DNA of 64,000 nucleotides, taken from contig NW_002476434.1 of NCBI RefSeq assembly GCF_000189635.1, positions 1,302,001 to 1,366,000 of the forward strand. The letters run 5' to 3'. Every line of letters starts with the position of its first letter. Position 1 is the stretch's first letter. Below are positions 28,190-64,000 of the stretch, piece by piece. The notes beneath the pieces were generated by a model, which saw only the letters and a list, made by a program, of their open reading frames with translations, was not told the origin of the DNA and did no database searches. The DNA is from Tetrahymena thermophila SB210. Its lineage: Eukaryota; Ciliophora; Oligohymenophorea; Hymenostomatida; Tetrahymenidae. The position numbers were made by a program, and so were the translations under genes.

Positions 28190-28790
28190 TACACTTTTAT
28201 TTTTAAGGGCTTCTCTTTTTCAATTTATTTTGTAAGATCATCTATAAGATTTCGGTGATCCATTAAATTAAAAACCTTTAAACTAGCAATAAAATACAGA
28301 TTAAAAATTATTGTTTCTACAACTTTAGCTTAAAATTCTTTTGTAGTTATCTAATTAACTTTTCTTGATAAATATGTTTTAATTTCAGAGTAAAAAAATA
28401 AATTTAATACATTATACATAGATTAATTGATACTTTTATTTATTTAATAATAGTATCACTCATTTAAATATTTTATAAACTCTTTAAAATAATTTTTATA
28501 ACATTTTATCTTTGGAATATTTTTATGTTTTTATGTTACTCATCATTATTAAAGTCTTTTAAATGTTACATCTGGTAGTATATATCTTCTAATTTCCATT
28601 TTGATTATCATGAAAGTAGCCTAGATCAAATATGCTCATCAAGCTAGTACTCTAATAGAGAATATGCATAGTTTTAATTATCTTGATTAAACGATTAATG
28701 AAGTAATTTCTGTTTTTTTGTTGACTATAATTCAATAAATCTAAAAATATGTTAATGAAATTATTTGAAATAATTTAAGTGATGAAATTG
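28190..28790 (-). pseudogene. Old relic of the orphan gene family (relic I)
   Basis: Fragments of the family protein can be read on the minus strand in changing frames: NFINIFLDLLNYSQQ near 28760-28720, VIKIILKSL near 28500, and LKVFNLMDHRNLIDDL followed by IEKEKPLKIKV near 28270-28195. These match the family's start, core and C-terminus. Frameshifts and stops separate them, so the copy is dead. It is far more decayed than pseudogene F. Confidence 0.65.
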
Positions 28791-29220
28791 ACTTTTTTTT
28801 CTTTTACTACAAAAAAATAATACAAACTAATCATTTAAATATTTCTAAAAAAAGTTTTTTGCATGATGTTTTTTTTAATTATAATTCCTGCTTTTTTAAT
28901 TAAAAATATTTGAGTTAGAGCAAAAAAGAATATTAATAAAGCTTGAATTCAAGGTATTTTAAAAATTTGTGGCTTTTTTACTCATTAAATTTATAATGTA
29001 AATGGTGAAAGTGGATATTTGTTTGAAAAATTACCTTATTAAAATGATATTTTAATTATTATGAAATAAAAATTTATACTATTATTTTTGAGTGCATAAA
29101 ATTAGAGTAAACATCTCTTTTTACAGTAATAAATTTCAATTAAAACTCTCTTTTAAATGAGAGTAAGATATATTGTTTGCTATTATAGTTTATGTAAAAA
29201 AATATTAATTTACTTCTTCA

Positions 29221-29280
29221 ATAATAATTTATCAGATTTTTTTGATAATTATAATAATCAGAAAGCTTCAGAATTTATAA
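29221..29280. repeat. Conserved noncoding block, occurrence 1 of 7
   Basis: Contains ATAATAATTTATCAGATT followed by TTTTTGATAA and then AGAAAGCTTCAGAA. The ATCAG..TTGAT part can pair as a small stem. Further occurrences start at about 34790, 40470, 46637, 51466, 57784 and 63308, which sets the block period at about 5.7 kb (range 4.8-6.4). Confidence 0.75.
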
Positions 29281-30390
29281 AGGCTCATAACAAAAAATAG
29301 AAAAAAATAGTTATTAAATTAATTTAAAATATTACATATAAATTTCAATCATATTACTTGTAAACCTGATAATCATTTTCAATATTAGGTTTGAAAATAA
29401 TTTAATTTATTTCCATCGAGTATTAAAACTAATATTAATTTTAGAAAATGTTATTGCAAGTTTTAAAAGATATAAAAAATAATTATTAAAAGCATCTAAA
29501 AAAATATGCTAATTACTCTACATCATATTGTCAAGTATTTTAAATAGATAGTTTTTACTGAATTTAGATAAAATTATTTTTAATATTTTTCAAAAAAATG
29601 AGAGGAAAAAAAAAATTTATGAAGAATTTAAAATTCAACTTATAAACTATTTTAGATTATGCAAAAAGTAATTTAATTTTTATAAATTAAGTTAATAACT
29701 TTCATCTCAAATATGAAATAAACACAATTAAATGTGTATGAAAAATAATCAGCTGAAATAAAATTTAAATTATTTATTATTTTCTAATTTCTTAACTTAC
29801 ACTCTTTGATATTAGGAGAGTGATAATTCATTATTAAGTGGTTAATCAAATTTTGGTATATCTAGCTTAAAAGCGTTTAGAAACTTTATAAAATGATTAT
29901 ATAATATCCTCTTTAGTTTCTTTATCAATTTAAAGAATAATGACTATTAATTATTCTAATCCATTTTTATTACTTTTTATCATGTATTAAATTTCAGTTT
30001 AACATGAAAAATATATTTTTTTAAACAATTTTTTTAGATAACAAAAACAGAAACGTGAATGATCAATATAATTATAAAAGAAAATAATAAGAAAAATGTG
30101 AAATATTGGTAATATAAATCAGTCGATGTTTCTTTCTTTTTAATTTAAGATTGAAAAATTAACAAAATCTATATTTAACCACCACATTCATAAAAAACTT
30201 AGCTGTTTATTTTAGACTCTTTAATTACAAATATTATTTAAATTGATAAGTATGTGTTTTTCTCTCTTTTTTTACAACTTGATTTTAAAGGTTGAATTAC
30301 GTTTATCACCTAATAATTTCCACAATTTATTCTTGTTAAAAATTTTTATAGGATGCATTATTTTTTGTTGATTTTAAAAATTCATTTGGT

Positions 30391-30411
30391 TTGATTGAAA
30401 AATTGAATCAA
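30391..30411. repeat. Conserved hairpin, occurrence 1 of 6
   Basis: TTGATTG, a 7-bp spacer and a nearly exact complementary arm. The other blocks have it at 36388-36408, 41895-41915, 48130-48150, 52190-52210 and about 59187-59212. At 41895 and 48130 the arms pair perfectly (TTGATTG/CAATCAA). Confidence 0.65.
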
Positions 30412-31243
30412 TGAAATTATTTAAAAATAGCTAATATTAATTTTACTAAATCTTTTTCATTTTACATTTTTAGAAACTATTTCAGCAAATTTTAAGTAAT
30501 AAAATAGCTATTTATCTTCTTGAAATAAACTCTTTCCAAGTATTTATTTGATAATATTCATAAAGATATAATTTTATGTTTCAATAGTCTATGTTTTTAT
30601 CACAATTTTTGAGAGAAATAGTGACCTAATTTTTAAAAGACTTTCATGTAAATTTAAAAATTTTATTTTTAATTGAACCTATTATTAGAATAAAAATGAG
30701 CAAATTTAAAAAAATAAAATAAAATATTAACATTTTCCTGTAAAGATATTTAAATTTATTTACTTTATTTTCTAGCGTATCATTGAAAATAAATTATTAT
30801 CAATTATAGATTGAACCATTTCTATTCAATTTTTAAAAAAATTCAGAAAAGTGTAATAATTTGTGGGGAAAATGATCAAGTACATCTATTTAATGTTAAT
30901 TTAAATTTACAGAATAAATTGTAAAAATTAATTTTCTTTTTAGGCTAGAAAAAAATGTAAATTGTTTAAGGTAAACAGTTAATTTAGTATATACTTCAAT
31001 GGAATAAAAAGAATTTATATTTAAAAAAGCTGACTCAATAATCCTGGCTAGATAACTTTTGATTCATTTATGCTATAGTGTAATTATTTAAATAATTAAT
31101 AATGAATTTTTAAGAATATATTTCTAAAGTAAAAGGATTGTATTTTATTTCTTGAATTAAAATAAACTAGAAATATAGGTTAAAGTATTTATAAGAACCC
31201 ACAAACTATATTCAATAAATTAAAATAATATGATTTATATATA

Positions 31244-31632
31244 ATTGCCAAAATATATTTTAATTAGGGAGTTAAGGAAGGAATTTATTTGTAAAAGACT
31301 CAAATTAATTAATAGAAATCAATCATTATAATATATAATATTGCCAAAACATATTTTAATTTGGGAGTTAAGGAATGAAGGAATTTATTTTTTAAAAGGT
31401 TCAATTTAATTAATATATAGAAATCAATTATTTTAATATATCATATTTCCAAAACATATTTTAATTTGGGAGTTAAGGAAGGAAGGATTTTATTTTTTAA
31501 AGATTCAATTTAATTAATAAAAATCAATGATTTAATAAATGATATTGCCAAAACATATTTTAGTTTGGGAGTTAAGGAAGGGAGGAATTTATTTTTTAAA
31601 AGATTCAATTCAATTAATAGAAATCAATCAAT
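31244..31632. repeat. Four-copy minisatellite, period about 100 bp
   Basis: Four tandem copies beginning near 31244, 31341, 31446 and 31544. Each has TTGCCAAAACATATTTTA, then GGGAGTTAAGGAAGGAA, then TTCAATTTAATTAATAGAAA. The other blocks carry this segment only once (near 37225, 42750, 48830, 52655 and 60090), so the expansion is specific to the block of gene A. Confidence 0.85.
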
Positions 31633-31913
31633 GATTATAAATACAACCAACAAAATTTTGATTTATTTATAGCTAAAAACTTATATGCTTAAAAACAATA
31701 ATAAACGCAAAAAACAATCTTTTTATTTAAATTGCTAGTGTTTTCAGGAAATGTTTTATTTAGATTAAGTATATTTTTTTGTTAACAATAATAAGAGTTA
31801 ATACAATCGTATAAATAAAATATAAATAACACTTAAAGGATAATTATATATTGATTTAATTGTAAATATTAATTATTTGCAAATTGTATTCATGCATACA
31901 TGGTTTTGAAATA

Positions 31914-32555
31914 TCATTTCTTTTTCTTATATATTTTTATGTCTAATGGTTAGTTATTTTCTATGCAATTTAAAAGAACATCAATTAGCCTCTGATGTTC
32001 ATCTAAATTAGACACTTTAGATTTTGAAAGCCATTATTAGGAGTTGTTAAATAGATAATCATAAAATATAAGCTTTAAACTCTAACTTTGTAGAAGACTT
32101 CTAAGCTAAAAATTCCATCTATTTGTTTTGACATTCACTTTCTTAGACACTGCTTTTTTAATTTCAGAAAAAGGCTTATTGTTTTTTTTGAAGTACATTT
32201 ATTAATATTTTTATTTCTTGTTTGAGTCTGATAAATTTACTAAATAGCTAAGGAAGCTCTTTAAAATATTTTTTATTATATTTTATTATTGATTTTATTT
32301 CAATTTAGAATCAATCCTTTCTTCAAAATAGTCATAATCATCTAATTATTTAGTAGGTTCATTATAGCATTGCTATGATTCAAAGCTAGAATCCTCCTAT
32401 TTTTTAAAATTTAGCTCCTTTAAAAAACAGCTATCGCATTCATAGTTCAACACAGATAAAGTATTTAATTTGTTTTATGGAATTTATTAAGCAACTACAT
32501 CAAGAAATATGTTTATTACGCTACCTAGAGCGTTATTACTTTGTAAAGAATTCAT
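31914..32555 (-). CDS. Orphan array protein, copy A (213 aa)
   Basis: Complete single-exon ORF, ATG 32555 to TGA 31914, in the ciliate code. No known domain recognised. Visible layout: a hydrophobic helix at 11-22 (GSVINIFLDVVA); a Cys pair C40-x2-C43 in YECDSCF; an acidic stretch DDYDYFEER (72-80); then a conserved core with IIKNILKSFLSYL (93-105), KKAVSKKVNVKTNRWNF (133-149), LIFYDYLFN (162-170), WLSKSKV (175-181), EHQRLID (186-192) and LNCIENNQPLDIK (195-207); and a basic end KKKK. No signal peptide. Lys-rich composition would suit a nuclear or nucleic-acid-associated protein, but that is a guess. Four other copies keep the same frame, the best evidence that it is a real gene. Confidence 0.85.
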
Positions 32556-32619
32556 ATACTTTTTTTTAAGTTTTATATTTTTAATTATATTAATTATTTC
32601 TTACTTTTTACAAACCAAG

Positions 32620-32800
32620 ATTTTTTTTAAAGCATAAAAAATTATGCTCTCTCAATCAATTTTCTTTTTTTATGAAGCAACTCAAAAAAGCAAAATATAT
32701 ATTATATATGTTTATTTATTTATTGGAAACAAGAATTGCTAAAATTAAAGCCAGTGATTGATTAGTGATTGTGATAGCACATCATTCCCGAAGATATATT
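32620..32800 (-). promoter_or_regulatory. Conserved upstream block of copy A
   Basis: Upstream (5') of gene A on its strand. Conserved strings include AGCATAAAAAATTATGCT, TCAATTTTCTTT, ATGAAGCAACTCAAAAAAG and AGCCAGTGATTG..GATAACACATCATTC. Equivalent blocks lie at 38265-38400 (B), 43855-43990 (C) and 49915-50060 (D), and a decayed one upstream of F (about 61080-61200). They are absent or unrecognisable at E. A promoter/5' UTR role is inferred from position and conservation only. Confidence 0.5.
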
Positions 32801-32949
32801 ATGATAATATCTAACAATTATTATTTATTAGAAATACAATAAATTTCTATTCAAAATTTTATAGTATTGAATATGTCTTACCACACAATGTGATTTTCAA
32901 TAATATTTTTAACAAGCTAATTTATAGTGATAAAAAACATTTTTTAATT

Positions 32950-33078
32950 TATACTGTAACCTCTCATTGGTAAAGACCTCTATTAATTAATAATTTTAAA
33001 ACTTTTGAAAAGACTAAAAAACTGAGCAAAGAATTAGGAGGAGGGGTATGGCCTTAATTAACTAGTGTTTACAGTATA
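32950..33078. mobile_element. MITE-like insertion with pogo-like inverted ends (unit I)
   Basis: Begins TATACTGTAACCTCTCATT and ends TGTTTACAGTATA; the outer 10 bp are perfect inverted repeats and the arms stay partly complementary further in (TTAATTAA on both sides). TA at both ends fits a TA target duplication. It is about 129 bp, with an unusual GGAGGAGGGGTATGG near the right end. The site is empty in the blocks of B, D and F. Confidence 0.65.
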
Positions 33079-34999
33079 ATATATTATTAATATTAGTTAA
33101 AATAAGCAATCATTTAAATTTTGTTGGATTGTATTTTATATTAGCTATAATTTCTATTTGAGAATTTACTAGTAATTATAAATGCTAATGGACTTATACA
33201 TGCTATATTATTTTAAAAAAACAATAATCAATCTCTGCAAATTCTCAAGTGTATATTTAATTTAATAAGTGATAAATCAAATTAAGGAAAGACAAATATA
33301 ACATTTAAAATAAATTATTTACTATTTATTTAAGAATATTTTTTTGTCCAATACTTTTCTTTGAATATATTTAAAGAATAAATTTGAATAATTGATCAAA
33401 TTTGAAGATAAAAACTATGAAAATATTCTAATTCTTTTTAATCATCTTTTCATAAGAAATTAAAAAGAATAACTAATTGTATTTATTTCAATCCAAATTA
33501 TAAAATATTTCTTTCACTAAAATTTGAAGAGTTTATTTAATTTTCCTTATTATTTTATTTAACACCATGTAAATCTGCTTTCGTATTACAAGCTAAAATT
33601 TTAATATAGAAGGATCGTGGGGAATTTAGTTATACAAATGAAATTAGCTTTTATTAGATTGTTGTTATGATTATTTTTACAATTTTTTAATATAATGAAA
33701 TTCCAAAATCAAAAGAATTTTTAAAGTTAATTTACTTTTTTCCTCACCAAGATTATTAATTTAGATTTGTATAATCAATTAAATTTCATCAAAAATTTAT
33801 ATTTGCTTGGTTTCACAAAAAATATAAACAATTAATTAGATTTAAAAGGATGTTTAATGATTAATTATTTACAATTACAATCACCTTTTTAATTGAAATA
33901 ATTAACTATTTACATAATTAATCAACAGGAGATTAAGAATCAAAATTTAAAATTTAACTTTATTAAAAATAACTTTTTATCATAAATGTGTATTAGCTAA
34001 ATCAAATAATAGAGATCATTAAACATTTTTAGTATTTTATGATTTTTCTGAATAATCTTTATTTATTTACTTTTAATATTATCTCTAATAATAAATAAAA
34101 TATTTACTTTTTTTTATTGAATGAATTTTTATTTAATCTAATTTAAGTAGTTATTTTTCAATATTATTTATTGTTGTATTGATTAGCTGTTTGATGATTA
34201 TTAAACTAAAGATCTTTCTTAAATTTAAATTTAATTCATTCATGATTTCTTTAATTATATAATTAAATCAAAATTTTCTCATGGTTTTTTTTATTTCTAT
34301 AAATGCTTTTTGAATTTGAGATAATAAATATTTATAATTAATTCTAATTTGATATTTATAAATCAACAAACAAATAGTGAAAAAGCTTCTTTTATATTAG
34401 AGAAAATTTTATTTAATTACTAATAAAATAAAAGAAAAACAAGGATTTTTTGTTTTATCAACTTTAAATTTAAATTTTTTATTAAGACTTATTTAAACAT
34501 TTGTGTATTAATAATTAACTTTTTTATCTCAAGTTAATTTTATTTAAATACTAGGATATGGAATTCAATCTTTATATTTTTACATTATATTAATTGCTTG
34601 AATCAAAGTAAAAAAATAAAAAAATCTTTGGTTGATATTTGTGTTTGAGTATTGATAAGAATGTAAAAAATATAAAGGATAATTTAATAATTGATTCACA
34701 TTCAATAATTTTATTTTATATTCTTTCAATTTAATAGTATTTATTATTAGTTTTTTAAAGTTCGCGTAAACTAATAAATTTTCATTTCCAATAATAATTT
34801 ATCAGATTTTTTGATAATAATAATTAGAAAGCTTCAGAATAGATCAAGCCTCATAACAAAAAAAAAATTAAAAATATCAAATAGAAATTTCAAGAACACT
34901 AATTGTAAATCAGAAAATTATTTTTTATATTATTTAAAATATAAAAAAATATATTTCAATATTGAGTTTTTAATATAAAAGCATTAACTATGGATAAAA

Positions 35000-35880
35000 A
35001 GTATATATCAAAATCATCTAATTGTTAAAAATATACCAATAACTACAATTGATCAAAAATTTAAACTAAAAATTTTTTACTGAATTTAGATAAAATTATT
35101 TTTAATTTAAGAAAAATTAAAAAATTTATCTAAAATTTAAAATTCAACTTAAAGACTACATTATAATTTGCTTTTGAAAATACTCATAATTATATTAAAA
35201 TTAGACAATTATACTTCGTTAATGATAACTAATTAAATAAATAAATAAAAAATTGTTTTGAAGATGCCTTAAAGATAATTTCAAATGTATGAAAAATTAA
35301 CCAGCTGCAATAAAATTAAAACTTTTTAATACTTTTGTAATTTATTAATTTATTTACACTTTTTGATATCATAGGAGTGATAATTGATTATTAGAGTGGT
35401 TAATCAAATTTTGGTATATTTACCTTACAAGTGTTTAGAAACTAAATAAAGTATATATTAAAAGCATCTAATTGTTAAAAATATACCAATAACTACAATT
35501 GATCAAGAATTTAAACTAAACAATTATACTTCGTTAATGATAACTAATTAAATAAATAAATAAATAAAAAATTGTTTTGAAGATATTTGTAAAGCAAATA
35601 GCCACTTTAAATGTTTATTATTTTTTTGTTTTAGATTACGCAAAATATAATTAAATTAATTCTTATGGTTAAGTTAATTATTTTCTTCTAAAATATGAAA
35701 TAAAGATAATTTGATATGTATGAAAAATTAATTAGCTGCAATAAAATTAAAATTTTTTAATACTTTGTAATTTATTAATTTATTTACACTCTTTGATATT
35801 ATATGAGTGATAATTGATTATTAGAGTGGTTAATCAAATTTTGGTATATTTACCTTACAAGTGTTTAGAAACTAAATAAA
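35000..35880. repeat. Local tandem duplication (period about 430 bp)
   Basis: Segments near 35010-35449 and 35440-35880 repeat the same motifs in order: TAATTGTTAAAAATATACC, AATTATACTTCGTTAATG, and TTTGGTATATTTACCTTACA followed by AGTGTTTAGAAACTAAATAAA. The second copy carries about the same order with indels. Specific to the block of gene B. Confidence 0.75.
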
Positions 35881-37575
35881 ATGACTATACAATACTCTCT
35901 TTAGTCTCATTATATTTTTAAAAAATAATAACTATTAATTATTACAACGCATAGTTATTATTTTTAATTATGTATAATATCTCGCTTTAACATAAATAAT
36001 AATCCTACCTAAACAATTTTTTTGGATGGCAAATACATAAATATGTAAACAGAAACAAATATTATCATCGTTAGAATAGTATATACTTAGAAAAATGTGA
36101 TAGATTTAAAATTTAAAAGTAACATAATTTATATTTAACCACCATATTTACAAATAACTAAGTGTTTTTATTGACTCTTTTATTACAAATATTATTTAAA
36201 TTTATTATTATGTGTTTTCAAGAAAGGAAGTAATTAATTTTTCTCTCTTATTTTACAACTTGATTTTAAAGGATGAATTACATTTAATATATTACCTCTC
36301 AAATAATGTTCACAATTTATCTTTATCAAAAATTTTTAGAAGAAGCATTCTTTTTTCTTGATTTTAAAAATTCACTAGTCATTTGCTTTGATTGAAAAAT
36401 CCAATCAACAGAAATCATTTGAATACAGTTGATAATATTTACTAAGTCTTTTTTATTTGACATTTTTAGAAACTATTTGAGTAAATTTTAAGTAAAAAAA
36501 TAGTAATTCATCTTCTGGTAAATAAGCTCTACCATAGCACTTATTTGAAAAATACACAAAGAGATATTTTTGTGGTTCTTCAGCCTAATTTTTCATCAAA
36601 ATTTCTGAAATAAATAATGATCAAATTTTTAAAAGATTTTCATTAGAATTTTAAATTGCTAAATATTATTTGTAATAGAATTAATAAGAATAAAAAACGA
36701 GCAAAATTTTTATAAGCTAAAATATTAAAATGGTGGTGTTAAATTTAATTATATGTACTTTATTTTCTAGTTGAAAATTGTCATCAATAAATAATAAATA
36801 GAACCATTTCTTTTAAATTTTAAAAAAACTTAGAAAAGTGTAATAAGTGTGGGGAAACAAACGATCAATTATTTGTATTTAATATTTATTTAAATTTACC
36901 TTTTCTTGTATGCTTGAATCAAATGTAAATTATTTAAGGTAAACAGTTAATTTACTGCATATGTCAATAGAATAAAAACATATTATATTTAAAAAAGCTG
37001 ACTCAATTATCAGGCTAGATAACTTTTGATTGATATTATTTTACAGTGTAATTATTTAAATAAATTTGAATGATATTTTTAAGAAAATATTCTTCAAGTA
37101 AAAGGATTTGATTTTGTTTCAATAATTAAATAAGCTATAAAGAAAAAAATTGGTTAAAGTATTTTTATAAACACAAAAACTATATTCAATAAAATAAATC
37201 TTTATGATTTAAAATTCTATGAATTATATTAAATAGTCAAAATGTATCTTGGTTAACAAGTTAAGCAAGCAAGGAATATATTTTTTAAAAGATTCAATTT
37301 AATTAATAAAGATTATTAATACAACCAACAGAATCTTGATTTATATAAAGTAAAAACTAATATATTTGAATATAATCATAAACGTTTTTAAATCGCTAAT
37401 GTATTCAGAAAAAGTTTTATTTAGATTTATTAAAAGTAATAAGAAAATACAAAAGTATATAATTAGAGCGAACTCATATAAATAACACTTAAAGATGCTT
37501 TATATATTTATATTGTTTTGATTGTAATTATTAATAATTAACAAGTTATATTCATTCATGCAAGGTTTAGATTTG

Positions 37576-38208
37576 TCATTTCTTTTTCTTATATATTTTT
37601 ATGTCTAATTGTTAATTATTTTCAATGCAATTTAAAAGAACATTAATTAGCCTCTGATGTTCTTCTAAATTAAACACTTTAGATTTTTAAAGCCATTATT
37701 AGGAATAATTTAGTAGATAATCATAAAATATAAGCCTTAAACTTTAACTTTAAAGAAGACTTTACAGCTAAAAATTCCATCTATTTGTTTTAACATTAAC
37801 TTTCTTTGACACTGCTTTTTTTATTTCAGAAAAAGACTTATTGCTTTGTTTAAAATATATTTACTAATATTTTTATTTAGTGTTTGAGTCTTATAATTTG
37901 GCTAAATAGCTAAGGAAGCTCTTTAAAATGTTTTTTATTATATTTTATTATTGATTTTATTTGGATTTAGGATCAATCCTTTCTCCAAAATAGTCATAAT
38001 CTTCAGATTATTTAGTAGATTCTTAATAGATTTGCAATTGTTCAAAGCTTGGATCCTGCTGATTTTTCAAAATTAACTCCTTTTAAAAACAGTTATCGCA
38101 TTCATAATTTGTCGCAGATTCAGTATTTAATTCATTTTATTAAGCTACCACATCAAGAAATATGTTTATTACGCTATTTAGAGCACTGTTATTTTGTTGA
38201 AAATTCAT
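37576..38208 (-). CDS. Orphan array protein, copy B (210 aa)
   Basis: Intact ORF, ATG 38208 to TGA 37576. Starts MNFQQNNSALNSVINIFLDV; Cys pair in YECDNCF; C-terminus identical in pattern to copy A. Relative to A it lacks three codons after VVAQQ, an in-frame deletion. It shares CFQKELILK-type sequence with D rather than the CFLKELNFK of A and C, placing it in the second slot of the 11.4-kb unit. An opposite-strand frame at 38049-38270 is only its shadow. Confidence 0.85.
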
Positions 38209-38264
38209 ATACTTTTTTTGAGTATAATATTTTTAGCAAGTTTAATTATTCTTTAGTTTATTTT

Positions 38265-38400
38265 TTTTAAAGCTTAACAAATTATGCTTTATCAATTTTC
38301 TTTATTTTATGAAGCAACTCAAAAAAGGCAAAAAATATATTTTTATTAATAGCAAGAATTTTAAAAATTTTAGCCAGTGATTGAGATAACACATCATTCA
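38265..38400 (-). promoter_or_regulatory. Conserved upstream block of copy B
   Basis: Same strings as upstream of copy A: AGCTTAACAAATTATGCT, TCAATTTTCTTTATTTTATG, AAGCAACTCAAAAAAGGC and GATAACACATCATTC. Confidence 0.5.
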
Positions 38401-39230
38401 TATTACGAAGATATCTATCAATTATTATATATTAGAAATAATATTAATTTCTATTCAAAATTATATAAAATTAAATGTGAATTACAACAAAATATGATTT
38501 AAAAATAATATTTTTAATAAGTTTTTTTACAATAATAAACATTTTTTTAATTTATTCTTAATATTAGTTTACAAAAGTAATCTTTTAAATTTTGTTGTAT
38601 TGTATTGTATTTTAACTATTATTTATATTTTAAAATTTACTAATTATTGTATTAATTTTGATATATTTTTACATGCTATCTTTGTTTAAATATAAAATTT
38701 ATTTTACTTAGCAAATTTTATTATGAAGATTTAATTCAATAAACAATAAATTAAATACAGGAAAGAAAAATATATCATTAAAAATAAACTATTAACTATT
38801 TATTTTAGAATCATATATATCAAATTAAAAAGTATTTTATATCTAAAGCCATTATTTGAGCAATATTTAAGTTATGTATTTGAATAAATGATCTAATTTC
38901 AAGTTAATAATTGAAAATTGAATGAGAGAGTATTTGTAAAAGAAGCTAATTATTATCATCAAATAAGCATAATTTGATGCTATTAAAAAATAATCAGCTG
39001 CAACAAAATTTAAACTTTTATAAAATTTTATTAATTTACACTCTTTGATATCTGATTAATCAAAATTGATTATAAGAATGGTTAACAAATTTTGGTATAT
39101 TTAGTTTATAAACACTTAGAATAATTACTAATTAGAAATATTTACTTGGATGATTTGTTATATAATAAAAGAATATGAAAAAAAAGTATAAAATATTAAT
39201 TATATTTTTCAATCAGAGGAAAATGTTAAA

Positions 39231-39572
39231 CCTATTTAATAACAGAGGATTTAATAGTATAATTAGATTTAAATAATACATACTATCTCGCTTAACCAAA
39301 CACTGGCTTATTCGATTAACTTGGTTTTATAATGCTTTATACTGAAGGCTCTTCTGCCTCTATTACTTAAGTCTCTATTGATTTCTACTAGACTACTACT
39401 AGATACTATTCTAACACAACAATTTATATTCTAGCTAATAATCATTTAAGTCTTGAATCAATAATCCCATCCTAAGTAGAAGTTAGGGCTAATAAAATTA
39501 TTATAACAAGCTCTTAAATATTAATTTCAACAACTATAATTGGATAATTTTGTTTAAGTAGTTGAAATAAAT
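39231..39572 (+). pseudogene. 3' pseudogene fragment of the secreted-protein gene
   Basis: Matches the last third of the secreted-protein gene, from the AACAGAGGATTTAATAGTAT position to the TGA. A small deletion after TAGTATA breaks the frame near the start, and substitutions follow (for example EDSSASISSVSI became EGSSASITQVSI). The signal peptide, intron and first two thirds are missing. It abuts old family relic II, so the secreted gene was once part of, or inserted at, the unit boundary. Confidence 0.85.
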
Positions 39573-39589
39573 AAAACACCAATAAAAAA

Positions 39590-51080: not shown

Positions 51081-52914
51081 TCATTTATTTTATAAATAAA
51101 AAATTATCAGAACTATTTTTAAAAGAAATGTTCTAATTATAAATAATACTTTTTTTTAAAAGATAATAATTAATTGATTAAGGGTAAAAAAGAATATTAA
51201 AATTTAATTCATGATATTTTGAAAATTGTGTGTGGTTGTTTTACTCAATAAATTTGCAATCTAAATGGTGAAAATGGAACTTATTTTAAAAATTATCAAA
51301 TTAAAATGATATATAAATCTTATGAAGTAAAAGTGAAAAAAACTAATTTTGTTTTCTTGATTTTAAACTAGCACCTCATTTTGGAGTGATAAAATTCAAC
51401 TATAAATTAGAGTAAAATACTCATTTGTTATTGGAGACTGTGTAAAACTAATTAATTACCATTCTAATATTAATTTATCAGATTTATTTTGTTTAATAAT
51501 TAATTAGCAAGCTACAGAATTGATAAAAATTCATAAAAAAAGATAGAAAAATTAGTTATTAAATAAATTTAAATATCAAATAGAAATTTTTAACCAACTA
51601 CTTTCTTTCTAATCAGATCATTATTGTATAAATTATCTAAAAAATATATTTCATATTTTGAAAATAATTTATTAATTTTCATTTTTAAAATAAATTTTCA
51701 CCTTTAGAAAAAGATATCAAGAGTTTTAATAGATACTTATTATTAAAAGTGTTGAATAATTAAAAATAAATATACTAATTTCTTTAAATTTTATGATCAA
51801 AAATTTGTAATTAAGAATTTTTACTGAATTTATATAAAATTATTTTAAAGTTTTATAAAAAAAGATTAAAAGCATTTTCTTATCTAATTGCATTTATTCT
51901 TAAAAGAACCTTATTTAATTTAGATTTAAGATTTTCAAAATAATAAAGCTTTTATTTAACCAGCGCGCTCATATAAAAATTAAGTGTTTTTCTTTTGCTC
52001 TGTATTATTTAAATTTATTACTGTCTGTTTTTTAGGCTAAGAAGTAAAGAATTTTTCATTCTTTTTTTTAAAACCTCAATATAAATGATGAATTACATAT
52101 AAAAAATTACATCCCAAATAATTTCGCAATCTTATTCTTGTCAAAAAAAATTTATAAGAAGCATTAATAAATTTAATTAATCATTTACTTTGATTGATAA
52201 ATTCAATCTACAAAAATCATTTAAATAGATGATAATAATAATATAATAATAGTAATAAAAAAATAATAATAACTAATTAAGTCTTTTATATTTTGTATTT
52301 TCAGAATTATTTGAATTATTTTATTACAAATTATCTTCTTTTGAAATAAGCTAAAATCAAAGTAAATTATTTAAGGTAAGCAGTTAATTTACTTATATAA
52401 ATACATCAATAGAATAAAAACAGAAAAAAGCTGATTTAATAATCTTGCTAGAAAATTTCTGATTATCATGATTTTAAAATGCAATTATTTAAATCAATTT
52501 TAGTACTATTTTTCAGTGCATATTTCTAAATCGAAAGAATTGTATTTTTTTTCAAAAATTAAAAAATATAGATTACATTTCATATTGATCCAAAGGCAAT
52601 ATTCAATAAATAACTCTTTACGAATCAAAATACTTTGATTTTTTATCAAATAGTAAAAGCTTATTTTGATTAAGAAGTTGATGAAGGAATATATATACTT
52701 TTAAAAGATTCAATTTAATTAATAGAAATCAAAAATAATAAATATAATCAATCAAAGAAATTTATTTAGATTAATTTAAATCTAAAAAATTTGTTTAAAT
52801 ATAATTTTAAGCATAATAACAAACATTAATTACTATTATTGCTACTGTTTTAAAAGATGTTTTATTTAGATTAAATATATTTCCTAAAAGAAATCTAAGT
52901 TAATAAATATTTAT

Positions 52915-52985
52915 ATATATCACATAGCACTTCCAGGATTAAAGTTTTGTGGTAGCTCTATCGCAAGGGTAAAAATTTTGGAATT
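52915..52985. other. GC-richer island 3' of copy E
   Basis: About 70 bp (CACTTCCAGGATTAAAG.. to ..TCGCAAGGG) found only in this block, with composition unlike its surroundings. Both strands give short gene-like frames; a small RNA is also possible. No boundaries assigned. Confidence 0.3.
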
Positions 52986-53423
52986 CATAATTTTTGCACA
53001 AAAATTAAAAAATTTTTTGATGGCACACTTACTATTTTTCTTTTAATTTATCAAAATATATTAGAAGATAAATTTTTGTTTATAAATAATCAATTCAATT
53101 AATTATATTGCAAAATGATATATATTTTAAAAAACATTGAGAAATAAATAGCTTGCGCGGTAAAATAAATAATAAAAGAAATATAGTGGATTAAAATAGA
53201 AACAATAAATATAAAAAAATGGATACTTAATTAACACTTGAATAAATAATAGAGAAGAAAAATAAGATATAGCTTTGAATAAATTAAGAATAAAAAAAAA
53301 TGAATTTTTCATAATTGGTTCATAATGTTATGCTAAAATAATTTAAATTAAAGTCTAATAAATAAATATATAAATAAATAAACAAATAGATTTTCTTAGC
53401 TTATTTTAAGCGTTTATATAATT

Positions 53424-54062
53424 TCATTTCTTTTTCTTATATGTTTTTATTTTTAATGGTTAGTTATTTTCGATGCAATTTAGCATAAAGAAAATTAGCG
53501 TTTGATGTTCATTTGTATTAGAAACTTTTGATTGTATTAACCATGATTCAGATGAATTAACTAGATAGTGATAGAATATATTCTTTAATTTTTGACTTTA
53601 AACAATGCTTTGTAGCTGAAAATTCCATCTATTAGCCTTAATATTTACTTTCTTAGATACAACTTTTTTGATTTAGGAAAAGGTTATTAGGGAGTTTTTA
53701 TTGTACATTTATTAATATTTTCTAATAGTATCCCCATCTTACAATTTAATTAAATAATTTAGAAAACTTTTTAAGATGTTTTTTATCATATTTTATAATT
53801 GGTTATGTTTATTTTTAGAGACTTCAAACTATTCATCATCAACATCAGAGTATTAAGCAGATCTCTATTATGAATTCTAAAATTCTCTGCAAGAAACTTG
53901 TAATTAATTTTGAGAAGATATCTCTTTTAGACTAATGTCATTGCACGTACTATTCCATGAAGACTCTACATTTAGCTCATCCTCAGAAATTTTTTCATAA
54001 ACAATATCTAGAAATATGTTTATGATACTATTAAGAGCAGTTTATTTTGGTTAGCTGGTCAT
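53424..54062 (-). CDS. Orphan array protein, copy E (212 aa, diverged)
   Basis: Intact ORF, ATG 54062 to TGA 53424. Starts MTSQPKQTALNSIINIFLDI. Much diverged in the first 90 residues: the Cys pair is lost (STCND). The core is retained: MIKNILKSFLNYL, KKVVSKKVNIKANRWNFQL, NIFYHYLVN, LNCIENNQPLKIK and KKKK. Numerous nucleotide changes without a frame break argue for selection on the protein. It lacks the conserved upstream block of A-D, so it may be regulated differently or represent an older lineage. It occupies the first slot of unit III. Confidence 0.8.
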
Positions 54063-57000
54063 TATTTATTTTAATTATTAATTGTTATTTTGATTTATTT
54101 ATTATACTTCTTCTGTATTTATTGATCGCTTTAATACAAATAAGAGCAATGATAAATTATTACCCTTACTTTTCTAAAAATCAAGCTAATTTTTGTTTAA
54201 GTAACAAATGATTTGAAAAGCATAAACCAAAAAGTATGATAATTCCTTATTTTAAAACTTTATCTGAAGGCAAGATTTAATTAATTATTTAAAAAAAATA
54301 GTAAAGTAAAGTCATAAAGTAATTTCAGCAAATTGGTCTTCTTTGGATAACTTATAATAAGCAATTATTGTTTAGAAAATATTTTTTATTAATTTGAAAT
54401 AAGTTAAATCCTTTTATTGATGTTTTTCATCATTCAATATTTTTTGAAAAAATATTTTAATCTAATATTCTCTAGCCTTAATTTATAATTTTAATTTTTG
54501 GGAATAAAATAGGTAATATATTAGCTTTATTTTAAAAGATCACAAAAATATACACATTTTACTATTATTTAAAGTATTTATGTATGGAAAAGTGAATAAA
54601 TTTAAAAAATAAAAAGCTATTTGTTATCTAAAAATGAAATTCTTTTTGCTAAGAGACATTTCTATATTTAAATAAATAATGGTAAATAAGCATAAAGAAA
54701 GAAAGAACATTATTGCGATAATTTAATTTAGTATATTTTTAAAAATGTTAGGAGTTAATTTCAAATTTAATGCTGGGAGATAACAACAAAATATTAAAAT
54801 AGCTTTTGTTTCTGAATATAATGTTATATCACATTAATTAATATGTTAGTAAAGTCTTTATTACTTTTATTAGGTGTGATTATTGCTGTTGATATTATGA
54901 TGAAAGATACAAGTAAAAAAACACAAAAGTATGTTTATATTATTAACTTATTTTAGAAATAATAATTGCAAAAAATATCTTAGCAAAAATGATTTATCTG
55001 TTTTTGCTTATTAAAATTATGCTTTTTAGCATTAAAAATCTATCATTTAATTTGAGTAGAAAAAAAATCCAATAAGATGAAAATAATTTTTGGAAAAATT
55101 AGGCTTTTTTATAGTAAGCAAACCATTTATTTTTTTTATCTATTTCTTTCAATGAATAAATAAATATACATATCTGTTATTTAAATATTGTAAAAAGTTC
55201 TTCTTAGACGTGTTTAATAATAGAAAATTTTTAAATTATTTTCTATTTTCTCAAAACCTTATAATTATTTCATAGATTAAAGAGAATTCATATAATAAAT
55301 ATACCATAGCATATATAAAGAAAACAGAAGTAAAGAATAAGAAAATTTATATGTATGGTGAAATTTTTAATAAAAAATATTGGAAATTATTATTCGATAT
55401 TTCAATCAATTAATTTCACAATTAGAAAGAATCTCTTATCCACTTTTTGTATTTTCCAAATTATTTATTATTAATCAATCTCTCTCCCACTTTTATTTGA
55501 ATATACAGAAACTAAATTATTTATGTGTAAGGAACTAAGTCACAAAAAGATTTTTAGAATTTATTTTTCTTCCTTATCACTAAAAAATAATCTTACCTAA
55601 AATGCGAAAAACAAACATGCATATTTAAATCGAATACTAAAAAAGCATAAAATAAATACTTTTTAGATTATTTTTATAAGTTACTTATAAAATATTTAAT
55701 AATCTTATCTAACTTTTTAATTGATTGCTAAATGATTAACTAACTACTCACTAAAAAATGATTCATTGTATTTAACATTAATAAATTTGAGCTAATTAAT
55801 TTATTTCTATGCAAAGATAACTCATTATTAAAGTAAACTTTGAATATTTTAATCAAAATATTTTTTATTTTGAATTTGCTTACTTGAATACTTTTTGCTT
55901 CTATCTATCTATTTATTTATGAAGTGCTTGAATTTATATCCAACATTATTAATTTACTTCAAATAATGTTATTAATTAAAATCTATTATTATAGTATTTT
56001 TAATTATTCTGCCCCCACCAAATTATGATATCAAAAGAATACTTTATAATTGATAATTGAAGGATCTAGAAAGTAAATCAATTTTCTATTTTAAATTACT
56101 CATAGAAGACTTAAACTATACATTATCATTTTGCAATTGCTTGTGTGCTAAAAAACGACTCTAATATTTGATATAATTTTCTGTTATGTTAGCCTTATAA
56201 TTTATTCCCTTTGAAATGTTTATTTCAATCAAAGTAATAGAGAGTCACTTTTAATTATAAAATAATATTTTATATCAACAGATAAGCAAAAAATAAATAT
56301 AAATACTTTTCCTAAGCAATTAAAAATAATCTCAAAATACTTTTAAATATTTCAGCTTCTACGTTTACATCAAATAGTCTTATTAGTTATATTTCATTAA
56401 AGTATCTTCTTTCAATTATTATTGATTAATCAGGAATACGTATTACTCGCTTAAGCTTAATTTTTCAGAATTACTCTGCTGATAGGGTAGGGATATAGTA
56501 TAAGAATTTACAAATTTATTTGGCATAATCATTCATTAATTGCTTTAGCTCACCAACTCAGAATTCCCCTCTTTGTAACTCTTTTGATAGGGATATTGTA
56601 TAAGAATAATATTCCTAGCTATACCTAAATAAATGAACGAAATTTTTAATAAAAAACTCAAAATAATTTCAAAATTTAAGAAATTAAAAAATAATTTTTC
56701 TAAAATTAAACAAATAAAATAATTTTTAATAATTAAATTCATTTAATATACTTAAAAATTTAATAATAAGTTCAAGATTAATGAGAATTATCTCAATGAG
56801 TAAGATAAAGGGAGAACAACTTTGATATTCATTAAAGATGAATAACTAAATCAATTTTGTTTACAACTCTCTCTACAATAGCTAACGATATTAATTAGTA
56901 TAAAGTTGAAAACCATTTTCATATGCCTAAGGAGTAAAAAATTTGCAAGAAATATTAAAAATAATATTTATTTTCTGAACATATCATTGAGGTGAGAATT

Positions 57001-57780
57001 TTAAAATATTGAATGTAATTTATTGTAATATAAATGGTTGTTGAGTAGCAAATCTAAAAAAAGAAACAATAGACACTAACTATTAGGTTTATAACATCAC
57101 TTAATTTCTAAATTACACAAATAATAGCTTGTTTGATTTATAAGATATAACAAATATTATATACATATTAGATACTTCTACTTTTATTATTTCAATTTCT
57201 ACTAATAAGAAATAACTTTATATTATTCTTAATAATTTATTTACAAGATAAAAATAGTTATATAGGGAGGGAATAAGTAATTGATGGTTTTTGAGCATCC
57301 TCAAAAAAAACTATTTCTAACATAGACAGACATATTTTACTGTACTTATTTATAGCCTAAAACACCCTTCCTAAGTATAAAATACTGAAGATTTTTTTAC
57401 CAAGGTTTAAAATGAATATGGTATAGAAAATAGAATGATGTTCTAAAAATAATTTTACTTTTTTTAATTAAAGATGATGGAATAGCAGATTTAGAGTAAA
57501 AAACAATATTAAAACTTGAATTCATTTATATATTTGTGGTTTTTTTACTCAATAAATTTACAATGTAAATGGTGGAATAGGAAATATATTTTAATTGTTA
57601 TCTTATTAATATGATATTTTGATTCTTATGAAATATATTTATAATAAAACTTTTAATAACTTCTAAGTAGACTAAGCATCTCTTCTTAGAGTGCTAAATT
57701 TCAATTCTAAATTTGTATGGAAATGAGAGAAAAATATCTTTTTTGCTACAGTAGTTCTTGTATAGATAATTAATTTACAT
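54063..57780. other. Noncoding part of unit III
   Basis: AT-rich spacer. A 49-codon plus-strand frame at 54843-54992 begins with a signal-peptide-like MLVKSLLLLLGVIIAVDI but has no support beyond that. A direct repeat of GATAGGGATATTGTATAAGA-like sequence lies near 56481 and 56587. A short run of five C's occurs near 56012. Confidence 0.4.
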
Positions 57781-60382
57781 TTTCAATAATAATTTATCAG
57801 ATTTTTTTGATTAACAATAATCAGAAAGTTTCAATATTAATCAAGATTCATAACAAAAGATAGAAAAATTAGCTATTAAATAAATTAAAAGTATCATAAT
57901 GAAATTTCAAGTAGGCTAATTATAAATCAGAAAAATATTTTTTATATTGCTTAAAATATCAAAAAATGAATATCAATAATGTATTTTAAATATAATTTAA
58001 TCGATTAGCTTTGACTATTAAAGCTAATTATAACTCTGTGAAAGCATTATCGCAAGCAAGCAAGTTTTTATGGATCAAATATATTTATTAAAGCATCAAA
58101 TTTTTAAAAATATTATGATCAATAATTGTAATCTAAACATTTTTTACTTGATTTAGATAAAATTATTTTTAATATTTTATCAAAAAAATGAGAGAAAACT
58201 AAAAAAATTTTATCAAATATTTAAAATTCAACTTAGAAACTATATTATAAGCTACTTTAGCAAATCCCATAAAAAGACTAAAAATTATACAATTACTTTT
58301 CACTGAGCTCATCTATATTTAAATTAGATAGATAGATAAACAAATAAAATTGCTTTTAAAGATAGCAAACAATAACTTTAATATTTGAATTTTTGCAAAA
58401 TGTAATAAATTTCTTATAAGTTAATTAATTATTTCATCTAAAATACAAAGTGAAAATAATTTGATGTGTATGAAAAAATAAATAATCAGCTGTAATAAAA
58501 TTTAATTTTTTTATTACTTTTGTAATTTCTTAATTTATTTACTCTTTTTAATATCAGATATGTGATTGATTACTCATTTATTTTGAGAGTGGTTTATCAA
58601 ATTTTTGTATATTTTGCTAATAATTGTTATAAATTATATAATATGACATATACTATTCTTTTTAGTTTGACTGCTGTATTTTTAAAGAATAATAAGATAT
58701 TAATTATTTTTTTCATGTATTATATCTCTCTTTAACATGAATAACAATCCAACCTAAACAATTTTTTTGATACCAAACATATGGCAATATTAATAGATAT
58801 TTATTTACATGATCATTGTTATAAAAGAATAAACTAAAAAAATGTGAAATATTAATTTTCTAAACCAATCAGGTGTTTCTTTCTTTTAGATTTAAGATTT
58901 AAAAAGTAGTAAAATTTATACTTTACAACAACATTCATGATAATTAATAACTAAGTATTTCTTTACTTTTTGACACTTTAATTACAAATTTTATTTAAAT
59001 TAATTATTTTGTGTTTTGAAGAAAAAAAGTATTAAATTTTTCCCACTTTTTTTAAAACTTGATTGTTAAGGGTTAATAGCATTTAAAATATAATTCAAAT
59101 AATGTTCACAATTTATACTTGTCAAAAATTTTTAGAAGATGCATTATTTTTTAATGATTTTAATAATTCATTAATTATTTTCTTTTTTGATTGAAGAATT
59201 CAGTCAGTCAACAGAAACCATTTATAAAAAAGCTGAAAATAATTAATTACTAAATCCTTTATACTTTAAATTTTAGAAACTATTAGAGCAAGTTTAAAGT
59301 AAAAAAAAATAGCTATCCCTCTTCTATAACATAAGCTCTGCTCTGCCCTGCATTAATATGATAACATAAAAGGTATATTTTAGAAGTTCTACTAACTGTG
59401 TTTTCATCAAAATTTTTAAAAGAAATAATGATCAAATTTTTAAAAGACTTTCATGTAAATTTTAATTATTTAAATCTTATTTGTCGTAGAAATTATAAGA
59501 ATAAAATATTAGCAAATTTAAATTTAATAAGCTAAAGCATTAAAATGGGGGAGTTAAATTTATTTAGCGTACATTCATTATTTTCTATTAATCATTAAAA
59601 ATTGTCATCAATTATAGATCGAGCCATTTCTTTTCAATTTTAAAAAATCTAAGAAAAGTATAATAAGTGTGGGGAAAATGATAAAGTGTTTATATTGAAT
59701 ATTAATTTAAATTGACCTAATAAAAAGTAAAGATTAATTTTCTTTATAATGCTTGAATTCAATTTAAATTATTTCAGGAAACAGTTAATTTACTACATGC
59801 ATAGGTCAATAGAATAAAAAAAATTTATCTTTAAAAAAAGCTGACTCAGTTATCTGACTAGATAACTCCTGATTGACATTTTAATTATTGCGGTGTAATT
59901 ATTTAAATAAATATTAGCGAATTTTTAAAAACATATTTTTCAAGTAAAAGGATTGATTGTATTTCTTTTCAAGAATTAAAAAAAGCTAGAAAAATTGTGA
60001 AAGTATTTATATAAATCTAAAAAGTATTTTCTATAAGATCAATCCTTTTAATCCTTACAATTTAAAATGTTATGATTTATACCAAATTGCAAAAACATAT
60101 TTTAATTAAGAAGTTAAGGAAGGAATATATTTTTAAAAGTTACAATTTAATAAATAGAAATCAAAAGTTATAGATACAACCAATTAAATTAATTTGATTT
60201 CTATATGGCTAAAAACTAATGAGTTTTATTTAGATTAAATATATTTATTAATAGTAATGGGAATTAATACAACAGTTTAAAGAAAATTTAAATAATAATT
60301 TTAATGAATTTTTCATTCAAAATAACACTTAAAAATGTTTTATAAAATGCTTTTATTTTAATTAATAAACTATGTTTCTGTA

Positions 60383-61022
60383 GTTCTTTGAAATATTTAT
60401 TTTATGTTTTAATGTCTTATGGTTAGTTACTTTCTATGCTGTTTAAAAGAATATTAATTAGTCTCTAATGTTCATATAAATTAAACACTTTAAATTTGTA
60501 AAGCTATTGTTAGGAGTAATTGACTAGATAATCTTAAAATATAAGCTTTAAACTTTTATTTTATAGAAGGCTTCTTAGATTTTTCCATCTATTTATTAGT
60601 TATGATATTCACTTTCTTTGACACATATTTTTTAATTCAGAAAAAGGCTTATTGCTTTGTTTGATATATTTATTTACTAATACTTTTATTTTGTGTTTGA
60701 GTCTTATAATTTTATTAAGTATCTTAAAAAGCTCTTTAAAATGTTTTTTATTATTAATTTTGTTTCAATTTAGAGTCGATTCTCTCTTCAAAATAGTCAT
60801 AATCTTCAAATTATTTAGTAGATTTTTAATAGCCTTGGAATGATTTAAAGCACAAACCTCACTATTTAAAAAAAAAATTAATTCATTTTAAAAGCATCTT
60901 TAGATTTAATTGTTTGATGCAGATTCAGTATTTAATTCATTTTATGGAATTTATTAAGCAACTAAAACAAAAAATAAGTTTATTACACTATGCAGAGCAA
61001 TATAATTTTGTTAAGTGTTCAT
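60383..61022 (-). pseudogene. Orphan array protein, copy F (recent pseudogene)
   Basis: Aligns with second-slot copies B and D over the full length from an ATG at 61022 (MNTQQNYIALHSVIN). The frame is lost near 60870-60880 at an A/T homopolymer, and further indels occur in the SEIKKAVSKK and TNRWNF regions. The Cys pair and the KKKK-TGA ending are gone. The degree of decay is modest, so inactivation is more recent than in relics I-IV. Confidence 0.8.
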
Positions 61023-61527
61023 ATACTTTTTTAAAAAAATAATATTTTTATTCATTTTAATAACTTTTTATATCAAGATTTATATATTTTAATGCCACAC
61101 AAATAATTTTCTATCAGCTTTCTTTATTATATGAAAAAATAGAGAGACAAAATATTTATTAAAATTTTAGCTAGTTAAAAGTAAAATATCATTCAAAGTT
61201 ATATTAAGACAATATCTAACAGTTTTTGCTTATAGGAAATTATATAAATTTTTATTCAATATCTTGTAAAATAGAATATTCCTTACCATAAAATAAAGTA
61301 TTAAATAATATTTTTAATAAGCTAATTTATAGTAATAAAAAAGCTTTTAATTTAAATATGTATTATTTAATATTAGCTTACAATGTAATATTTAAAATTT
61401 TTAATTATATATTAGTTAAAATTCATATTACAAAATTTAATAGTAATAACAATTTTAAAATACACTTAAAAGCTATATTTATTTATTTATTTATTTGTTT
61501 AAATTTAACAATTATTTATTTCAATAA

Positions 61528-61549
61528 ATTCTCTAGGGTGCTAGAGAAT
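61528..61549. repeat. Perfect 9-bp-arm hairpin
   Basis: ATTCTCTAG, loop GGTG, CTAGAGAAT. Lies in the spacer between pseudogene F and relic IV. A terminator, protein-binding site or small foldback remain possible; no duplicate seen elsewhere in the window. Confidence 0.5.
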
Positions 61550-62369
61550 ATAACACCAGTCTCATTTTCTTACCAGTATAAAATCAGTCAGCGTAATATT
61601 TGACTCATTTTTATATATTAATATTTTTAAAATAATTTTTATCATATATACATACCTTCTATTATAGATAAATATATTTTCATTTATCATTATATTTTAA
61701 TTCATACAAATTTTTCAAAGTAAATTAATAGTTTTTCGAAAATTAAATTTTTTTTGGGTTGTTTTTGAAAAATTATTGTGAGTAAAAACATAAATAAATA
61801 AATAATTTTCATTTTTATAATTCAATTAAATCTAAATATATCAGAGTTTATTATTAAGTAACTGTTCTTTATATAATCTATATACTGTAAATTTAATTTT
61901 CAAACATAACTTTAAATTTGTTTAATAATTAATTATGATGAGTTTAAAATTTATGAAGATATTATTATTCTCATAAGTAATGTAAAAAATATATTGTAAA
62001 ATCAACTTTCAAAATAAAAGTATTATTTTGTTTAATAATTATCAATCCTTAAGATTCATCTTTTGATTTTTAATCATCCTGGAACTCTTAAATATTAATT
62101 AAAAAAGCTATAGCATAATTAATTAGAATTTTAAAATAAAAAACTTAGATTTTTTTAGTACTAACTTTTTATTTGTTGATTAATAATAAATAAATCAATA
62201 ATAATTCAAATAGAATTTTGCATTTTACTTTATTATAATAGAAATTAACTAAAAGACATAGATAGATTTATAGATGAGTGGGATATTTTTTATTTTGATT
62301 AAAAACAAATAAAAAGGCTTAGCTTGATTATTTATGTCCATCTCTTTATTTATATATTTATATTTTTAT

Positions 62370-62900
62370 GGGTTTCTCTTTTTCAATTTATTTTGTAAGA
62401 TCATCTATCTATCTATAAGTTTTTCATGATTAATTAAATGAGAGCGAGACTTTTGATCCTTGATGCAAAATTTTAGAAGCATTTTTTAAATATTAGTAAA
62501 TTATTGCTTAAAAATTATGGCTTTAAACAACACTCATTAGCAAAATTCCATCTTGTTGTTTTCTAATTAACTTTTTTTTATAAATATTTTTTAATTTCAG
62601 AATAAGAAATTAAATTAATTATAAATAGATTGATACTTTTTTTGATAACAGCATTATTTTACAAGTTTTTAAAATATTTTTGATAACATTTTATTATTGG
62701 AATATTTTGAGGCCTTTATATTATTCATCGTTATTAAAGTCTTTTAGATCTTATACTTAAGGAAAGTATACTCATCAAGCTAGTATTTATTCTACAAGAG
62801 AATATTTCTAATTGTCTTAATTAAATGAATAATCAAATAATTTATGCTTTTATGTTCATCTTTAAAATATGAAATTATTTGATGAAGTTGCTTTTTCTTC
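62370..62900 (-). pseudogene. Old relic of the orphan gene family (relic IV)
   Basis: Aligns at DNA level with relic I (for example AATTTCAGA..TAAATTAAT and TATTCATCGTTATTAAAGTC). The C-terminal end, HEKLID then the KKR-like tail, is readable near 62440-62370 with a frameshift. Unlike relics II and III it keeps the C-terminal region. Confidence 0.55.
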
Positions 62901-64000
62901 TATTGCTATAAAAAGAAAAAATAAATTAATCATAAAAAATTATTTTTAAAAAAGTTTTTAGTATGATGTTCTAATTATAATTCTTGCTTTTTTTAATTAA
63001 CTATTTGATTTAGAGCAAAAAAAATATGAAAACTTGAATTCAATAATCTTTAAAGTTTTTGACTTTTTTACTCTATATTTTTACCATGCAAAAGGTGAAA
63101 GAAAGCAGAGATTTATTTTAAAAATTATCTAATTAAAATGATATTTTAATTTTTATGAAATAAAAATGTATACTATAATTTTTGAGTGCTTAAAATTAGA
63201 GTAGGCATATCTTTTTAAGTAAGAAATTTCAATTTCAACTCTCTATTAAATCAAAATATGATATCTTATTTGTTATTATAGTTTGTGGAAAAATTGATTT
63301 ACTTCTTCAATAATAATTTATCAGATTTTTTTTGATAATAACAATAATCAGAATGCTTCAGAATTTATAAAGGCTCATAGCAAAAAATAGAAAAAAAATA
63401 GTTATTAAATAAATTTAAAATATTACATCTAAATTTCAAGTAGATTACTTGTGTAATCAAATAATTATTTTCATTATTAGCTTAGAAAATAATTTAATTT
63501 ATTAGTATCGAGTAATAAAACTAATTGTAACTTTTTGAAAGTGCTATTGCAAGTTTTTGTAGAAACAAAATATTATTTTTAAAAGCATATTATTATTAAA
63601 AATATACTATTTAATATTAATCTTATTACTAAGTATTTTAAATGGATATATTTTAGTGAATTTAGATAAAATTATTTTTTAAAATTAAAAAAACAAGAAA
63701 AAATTAAACAAAAATTAGCAAAAATTAAAAATTCAACTTAGAAGTAATACGATAAGTTGCTTTTAAAAACAACCAAAAATAGATTAAAATTAGACAATTA
63801 CTTTTTAATCATGATATCTCATCTGTATTTTTAATTAAATAAATAAAATAGTTTTTGACAATATTTACATAGCAAATAGAAATTTATCATTTTTATCTTT
63901 TTTTGTTTTAGATTATGCAAAAAATAATTTAGTTTTTATAAATTTACTTAATAATTTTCATCTAAAATATGAAGTAAGGATAAATAATTAGACGTATATG
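62370..64000. repeat. Higher-order repeat unit IV (partial, runs off the window)
   Basis: Starts with relic IV and includes the TTTATCAGATTTT block at 63308. Its first 1.6 kb aligns with 28190-29800 of unit I. By spacing, the next family gene is expected about 2.6 kb beyond the conserved block, near position 66 kb, outside this window. Confidence 0.7.

Follow-up and report, generated by a model that had tools for sequence, protein, structure and literature searches.

Structure of the repeat array

We analysed a stretch of 64,000 nucleotides from Tetrahymena thermophila SB210 (contig NW_002476434.1, positions 1,302,001 to 1,366,000), hereafter the window, whose coordinates are used for all positions on this contig. 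We assign the DNA to the macronuclear genome of T. thermophila. In the assembly, contig C4 begins with C4A2 telomere repeats and carries them on the other strand near 465.6 kb, an exon of ribosomal protein L3 agrees with the T. thermophila chain 4v8p_BB of the PDB at 190 of 190 residues, and the gene of a chain from the T. thermophila complex IV model (7w5z U5, see below) agrees with that chain at 159 of 159 aligned residues. From 28.2 kb to its right edge, the window is occupied by a tandem array of genes of the family DUF4441 (Pfam PF14536), embedded in AT-rich DNA (GC content of 16-21% per 2 kb between 28 and 64 kb). We regard this locus as very probably a gene array shaped by birth and death of its members, a degree of confidence that applies to the array and the family and not to the function of the proteins, which is treated separately below.

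The window was compared with itself together with 10 kb on the left and 70 kb on the right (144 kb; matches above 150 bp, E 1e-10). All 219 matches were direct and none was inverted; a reversed-sequence control gave one short match. Among the matches starting right of 27 kb, the aligned length peaked at offsets of 5.5-6.0 kb (9,832 and 7,903 bp) and 11.0-11.5 kb (6,936 and 10,631 bp), with further peaks at 17.5 kb (6,990 bp), 23.0 kb (10,420 bp), 28.5 kb (9,478 bp) and 34.0 kb (9,033 bp). A preliminary description of the sequence had taken these 36 kb of AT-rich DNA for a higher-order tandem array with periods of 5.7 and 11.4 kb, and both periods are present as direct diagonals. The array does not end at the 64-kb edge of the window: self-matches cover most of 26-86 kb (mean depth per 4 kb of 1.2-6.5, with minima at 54-58 and 78-82 kb) and family genes reach approximately 100 kb. 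Self-matching is thin at 86-98 kb, and beyond the array it is limited to two local duplications, one at 22.6-27 kb and a smaller one to the left of the window.

Within 28.2-64.0 kb, the seven predicted blocks of about 5.7 kb follow one another in the order B1, C1, B2, C2, D3, C3 and the start of B4. Their pairing into units of 11.4 kb is supported by a DNA tree of eight blocks (2,891 of 4,069 columns retained after removal of those with two or more gaps; D blocks outside the tree), in which the B blocks (B1, B2, B4) are split from the C blocks (C1-C5) with 100% ultrafast bootstrap and C3 and C5 are grouped at 100%. The D3 and D5 blocks are each other's best match. The margin in raw block identity is small (B-B 0.83-0.86, B-C 0.77-0.82, C-C 0.79-0.87); the protein tree supports the B group at 0.92.

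In total, the array comprises five units, 11.0-12.1 kb in length. Three of them lie in the window and two more extend to approximately 86 kb; in each, a relic accompanies one B- or D-type and one C-type gene, and all of these are encoded on the minus strand, in line with the predicted minus-strand copies of one family. The unit boundaries are approximate, as we cut the units at the relics. U1 (28150-39640, ~11.5 kb; relic, gene B, gene C), U2 (39640-50620, ~11.0 kb) and U4 (starting at 62315, with 62315-64000 in the window, and continuing to ~73860) were classified as type I, and U3 (50620-62315, ~11.7 kb; relic, gene D, pseudogene C) and U5 (from the end of U4 to ~86000) as type II, on the basis of unit identity and, for U4 and U5, also the self-comparison. 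With gaps excluded, U1, U2 and U4 are 81.7-83.5% identical to one another (over 9.5-10.2 kb, U1 shares 83.5% with U2 and 82.9% with U4) and U3 is 82.7% identical to U5. Identity between the two types is 68-71%, with 68-69% for U3 against U1, U2 and U4. The paralogues thus lie head to tail on one strand, with their flanks duplicated along with the genes.

Gene copies, relics and pseudogene

A family hidden Markov model (HMM) was built from 13 full-length copies, which are the 13 open genes of the array including five in the window. With this model, exactly ten members were found in the window, namely the five open genes, one pseudogene and four relics (one of them marginal), of which the pseudogene and the relics were not seeds of the model. 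This is the count given in the preliminary description; its dating of the pseudogene as recent is not supported, the block C3 having the longest branch on the DNA tree.

All members lie on the minus strand. In U1, a relic at 28180-28554 (HMM E 1.2e-13) with three in-frame TGA stops is followed by an open type B gene of 213 amino acids at 31914-32555 including the TGA stop (HMM match 31917-32549, E 9e-106, seed; Pfam E 4.5e-25), for whose start we chose a conserved ATG, and by an open type C gene of 210 amino acids at 37576-38208 (HMM match 37579-38199, E 4.2e-101, seed), whose frame is open further upstream. U2 contains a relic at 39668-40024 (HMM E 2.3e-13, model positions 7-121) from which the second half of the domain is missing and which sits in an open frame of 186 amino acids (39527-40087), an open type B gene of 214 amino acids at 43128-43772 (HMM match 43131-43766, E 5.9e-104, seed; Pfam E 1.4e-24) and an open type C gene of 213 amino acids at 49211-49852 (HMM match 49214-49846, E 2.8e-102, seed). 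The relic of U3 (50648-51031, HMM E 0.031) is weak alone but lies at the expected place, and its region matches those of the relics at 28.35 and 39.6 kb with a DNA identity of 76-77%. It is followed by an open type D gene of 212 amino acids at 53424-54062 (HMM match 53427-54056, E 1.3e-94, seed; Pfam E 1e-24) and the type C pseudogene at 60396-61013, which has two in-frame TGA codons and whose matches to an intact relative are split over three frames. The relic of U4 (62343-62930, HMM E 3.3e-12) has in-frame stops. The relics of U2 and U3 have no stop within the matched stretch, yet are truncated or badly diverged. No known RNA family or tRNA was detected in the window by Rfam (gathering scores) and ARAGORN.

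Beyond the window, eight more open genes were found at 65919, 71691, 76950, 84642, 87845, 91229, 94925 and 99669, together with one relic at 73884 and one fragment at 104.5 kb (two HMM matches with E >1 were excluded). This brings the totals for the array to 13 open genes, five relics and a single pseudogene. In every one of the five units, the third gene (gene A) persists as a relic or truncated copy, and in U3 gene C has decayed as well. The relics cluster on the protein tree with the open gene at 91.2 kb (support 0.994), which suggests that gene A of the ancestral unit was similar to this open gene.

The genes had been described as invisible to standard gene finding. This is correct under the standard genetic code, as 87 of 122 glutamine codons in the five open genes of the window (238 of 320 in all 13) are TAA or TAG; under the ciliate code (table 6), the gene frames of the window are open.

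Family identity and distribution in the genome

All three open genes of the window that were scanned, of the five present, match PF14536 (DUF4441) with 87-88.5 bits against a cut-off of 24. This match rules out the initial reading of the genes as an orphan, unknown family. It covers the C-terminal 117-119 residues, aligned to 113-116 of the 116 positions of the model, and the N-terminal motif and the linker of the array genes lie outside it. In an alignment of two window genes with nine from other contigs, N93, K96, N97, F102, K135, R147-W148-N149, L169, W176-L177, S180-K181, Y210 and K212 are invariant. The family name gives no function; DUF4441 is a catalogued domain of unknown function and unstudied as far as the literature was searched. 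Full-text searches returned no paper using 'DUF4441' or 'PF14536' in the text outside supplements, and among the best matches listed from the wider literature on Tetrahymena gene families, none concerned DUF4441 by title and start of the abstract.

In the 101.0-Mb assembly of 445 contigs, we found at least 150 DUF4441 matches, all above the cut-off (176 candidates, 150 scored); four array copies are missing from these 150, so the true number is higher. The genes are spread over at least 57 contigs, and 103 of the 150 listed matches fall into 24 clusters with neighbours less than 20 kb apart, the largest having 13, 12 and 10 listed members. Neighbours within clusters share the strand in 78 of 79 pairs. 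DUF4441 was found in none of 14 control genomes, and none of 400 pattern-matching stretches from viral contigs encodes a relative. On another contig (C91), two DUF4441 pairs with near-equal scores (337150-339824 and 381997-385401) lie approximately 45 kb apart and may stem from a recent segmental duplication.

Species-specific tandem clusters of Tetrahymena genes have been described by Xiong et al. 2019 (PMC6564038), according to whom young genes are arranged in tandem, evolve fast and are weakly expressed. As in the array, the clusters in that account consist of tandem paralogues on one strand with Ka/Ks (nonsynonymous to synonymous divergence) raised yet below 1; the medians given there for genes of one or two species are 0.25 and 0.30, compared to 0.19-0.42 across the 21 pairs of B/C genes of the array. 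The emphasis there is different, being on LRR, TPR, WD40, kinase, CNBD, GFR and P-loop families, and 'DUF' is absent from the main text. The largest strict cluster reported in it has 17 LRR genes, whereas the array has 13 open genes and one pseudogene.

Selection on the genes

The B/D and C genes are kept open under purifying selection. With a simple counting method and Jukes-Cantor (JC) correction, omega for all 13 open genes, whose synonymous sites are near saturation and whose pooled pairs are non-independent, was 0.28 for the first 24 alignment columns, 0.57 for the linker and 0.20 for the domain. The respective values for the seven B/C genes were 0.34 (the motif region), 0.48 and 0.17, and the D pair gave 0.62 for the first 24 columns and 0.20 for the domain. 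In the type I units, the five lowest pN/pS values (0.09-0.18) among 653 six-frame segments belonged without exception to the reading frames of B and C, with a median of 0.80 over all segments; other gene-frame segments among the 30 lowest reached 0.38. A second conserved open reading frame (ORF) in these units was considered and rejected: the 11 TGA-free segments among the 30 lowest all overlap B or C, in sense or, covering the same bases, in antisense.

Measured in 150-bp intervals, the identity of the three type I units (U1, U2 and U4) was 0.86-0.95 on the genes, dropping to 0.81 where the interval passes the stop of C. Non-genic identity was mostly 0.66-0.83, lower still with gaps, the exceptions being values of 0.85-0.89 near 29.2, 30.85, 36.25 and 36.85 kb and of 0.88 in the stretch immediately 5' of gene C (38.2-38.35 kb). 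The non-genic stretches 30850-31000, 36250-36400 and 36850-37300 (0.82-0.89) stand above most of this background; the low-ratio coding segments near them, among the 30 lowest pN/pS, contain TGA.

Origin of the array

The best explanation of these observations is birth-and-death evolution of a tandem gene array. A segment of approximately 11.4 kb with three genes (A, B and C) on one strand was duplicated head to tail, presumably by unequal crossing over in the germline as the pattern suggests, to give five units. These units now differ by 16-32% and are of two kinds. Gene A has become a relic or truncated copy in all of them and C has been lost in U3; the B/D and C genes otherwise remained open under purifying selection. 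As an instance of gene-family expansion the array is striking, but the process is of an ordinary kind. The locus is a clean case of gene birth and death within a tandem array, and the family is large, under selection and in possession of a Pfam number, with no study in the literature searched.

Several observations weigh against this account or parts of it. The C group is weakly resolved on the protein tree (0.61-0.76), and neither a unit breakpoint nor a polymorphic number of units was seen. Omega of the D-pair linker is 1.06, so constraint does not act on every part of the protein, and two non-genic 150-bp intervals (30.85 and 36.25 kb) reach an identity of 0.89, the level of gene parts. The proposed function draws on charge and motif, and one DUF4441 protein, present in a deposit of mitochondrial complex IV, would point elsewhere.

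Protein architecture and possible functions

The charge of the protein is split in all 13 open array genes, with an isoelectric point (pI) of 4.2-5.8 in the N-terminal part and 9.8-10.1 in the domain. By eye, an N-terminal motif of the type IxxFLEIV was recognised in all 15 family loci inspected on other contigs, which had been picked by similarity to a window gene, and in each of them motif, linker and domain follow one another in one open frame. Within the motif, F17 and L18 hardly vary across the alignment of 11 sequences. In the product of approximately 213 amino acids, the short N-terminal motif might dock a partner, the acidic linker would diverge fast and the basic C-terminal domain (pI ~10) might bind nucleic acid or an acidic protein, the copy number supplying variants of a regulator or adaptor. 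Judged from the sequences, we hold this function to be possible but rather doubtful.

A different role is suggested by chain U5 of PDB entry 7w5z (172 amino acids, 'Uncharacterized protein'), a T. thermophila chain with a solved structure and a DUF4441 sequence (family profile E 3.3e-14, Pfam E 6.5e-29). Its gene lies on another contig (C127, at 231160, near 231160-231636), with all 159 aligned residues identical, and encodes the full 172 amino acids of the chain. DUF4441 proteins could accordingly be peripheral subunits of the divergent ciliate respiratory complex IV, for which the array would supply alternative subunits. We consider this unlikely. U5 differs from the array genes in having no N-terminal motif by eye and in being the sole listed copy on its contig. 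Its sequence occurs in one PDB entry (two chains), with no other DUF4441 chain in the structure library searched, whereas a control carrier subunit of the same deposit occurs in four entries (7w5z, 8b6h, 8gym and 8gzu); this library excludes chains of unknown residues, so that an unassigned chain in later models would not show, and the comparison concerns U5 rather than the window genes. Because of this difference in entries, we did not build on U5. According to the text of a follow-up study (PMC10227065), in which the T. thermophila complex IV model is named Tt-CIV2, ciliate-specific sequences were found by density building followed by BLAST, so that U5 is possibly a misassigned chain. The deposited chain merits re-examination. 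A combined reading, in which DUF4441 comprises at least 150 undescribed two-module adaptors or regulators with the arrays as sites of diversification and at least one paralogue recruited to the respiratory chain as U5, is improbable. Other, distant PDB matches (VPS28, E 0.019 and worse) were treated as chance, and searches for COX6B and CDGSH found nothing; a search for RIB43A gave one match.

The remaining alternatives concern the DNA rather than the proteins. The long regular period, the AT-richness and the relics in every unit are what would be expected of a structural higher-order satellite with the genes as passengers. A satellite would be conserved in its DNA without constraint on the protein; here, selection acts on the protein, and it is on the genes that pN/pS is lowest and identity highest. 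In addition, there are five units only, and the repeated DNA itself stays local (this cluster accounts for 24 of the 25 listed matches to a 2-kb array probe, the probe itself counted), whereas the genes occur on many contigs. We therefore consider a satellite very unlikely. Spread by a mobile element or by retroposition, to which the single-exon genes and their wide dispersal over contigs could point, is likewise highly improbable: the copies lie head to tail with flanking DNA included and inverted self-matches are absent, and none of the ten ORFs scanned with Pfam (of 94 listed; three in the array) is a mobile-element gene, the unit ends not having been searched for terminal repeats or target-site duplications. 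Collapse or an assembly artefact, for which nothing speaks but the general difficulty of repeats, is extremely unlikely because the units differ by 16-32%, which would be too much for copies invented by an assembler.

Further repeats within and beside the array

Downstream of the first B gene, a 105-bp tandem repeat is present in four copies (31186-31643), and other blocks seem to hold fewer. The array is adjoined on the left by a tandem duplication (22656-24720 and 24863-26940, 85% identical), both copies of which contain a reading frame on the plus strand whose start resembles a signal peptide, as judged by eye; a Pfam scan of the main ORF in the first copy gave no match. A 375-bp piece inside U1 (39217-39590) is approximately 87% identical to these neighbouring genes and in the same orientation, and at this place U1 is unlike U2 and U4. 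U1 also contains a 180-bp direct duplicate (35270-35450 and 35701-35880, 431 bp apart), whose copies, at 95% identity, are far closer in sequence than the units.

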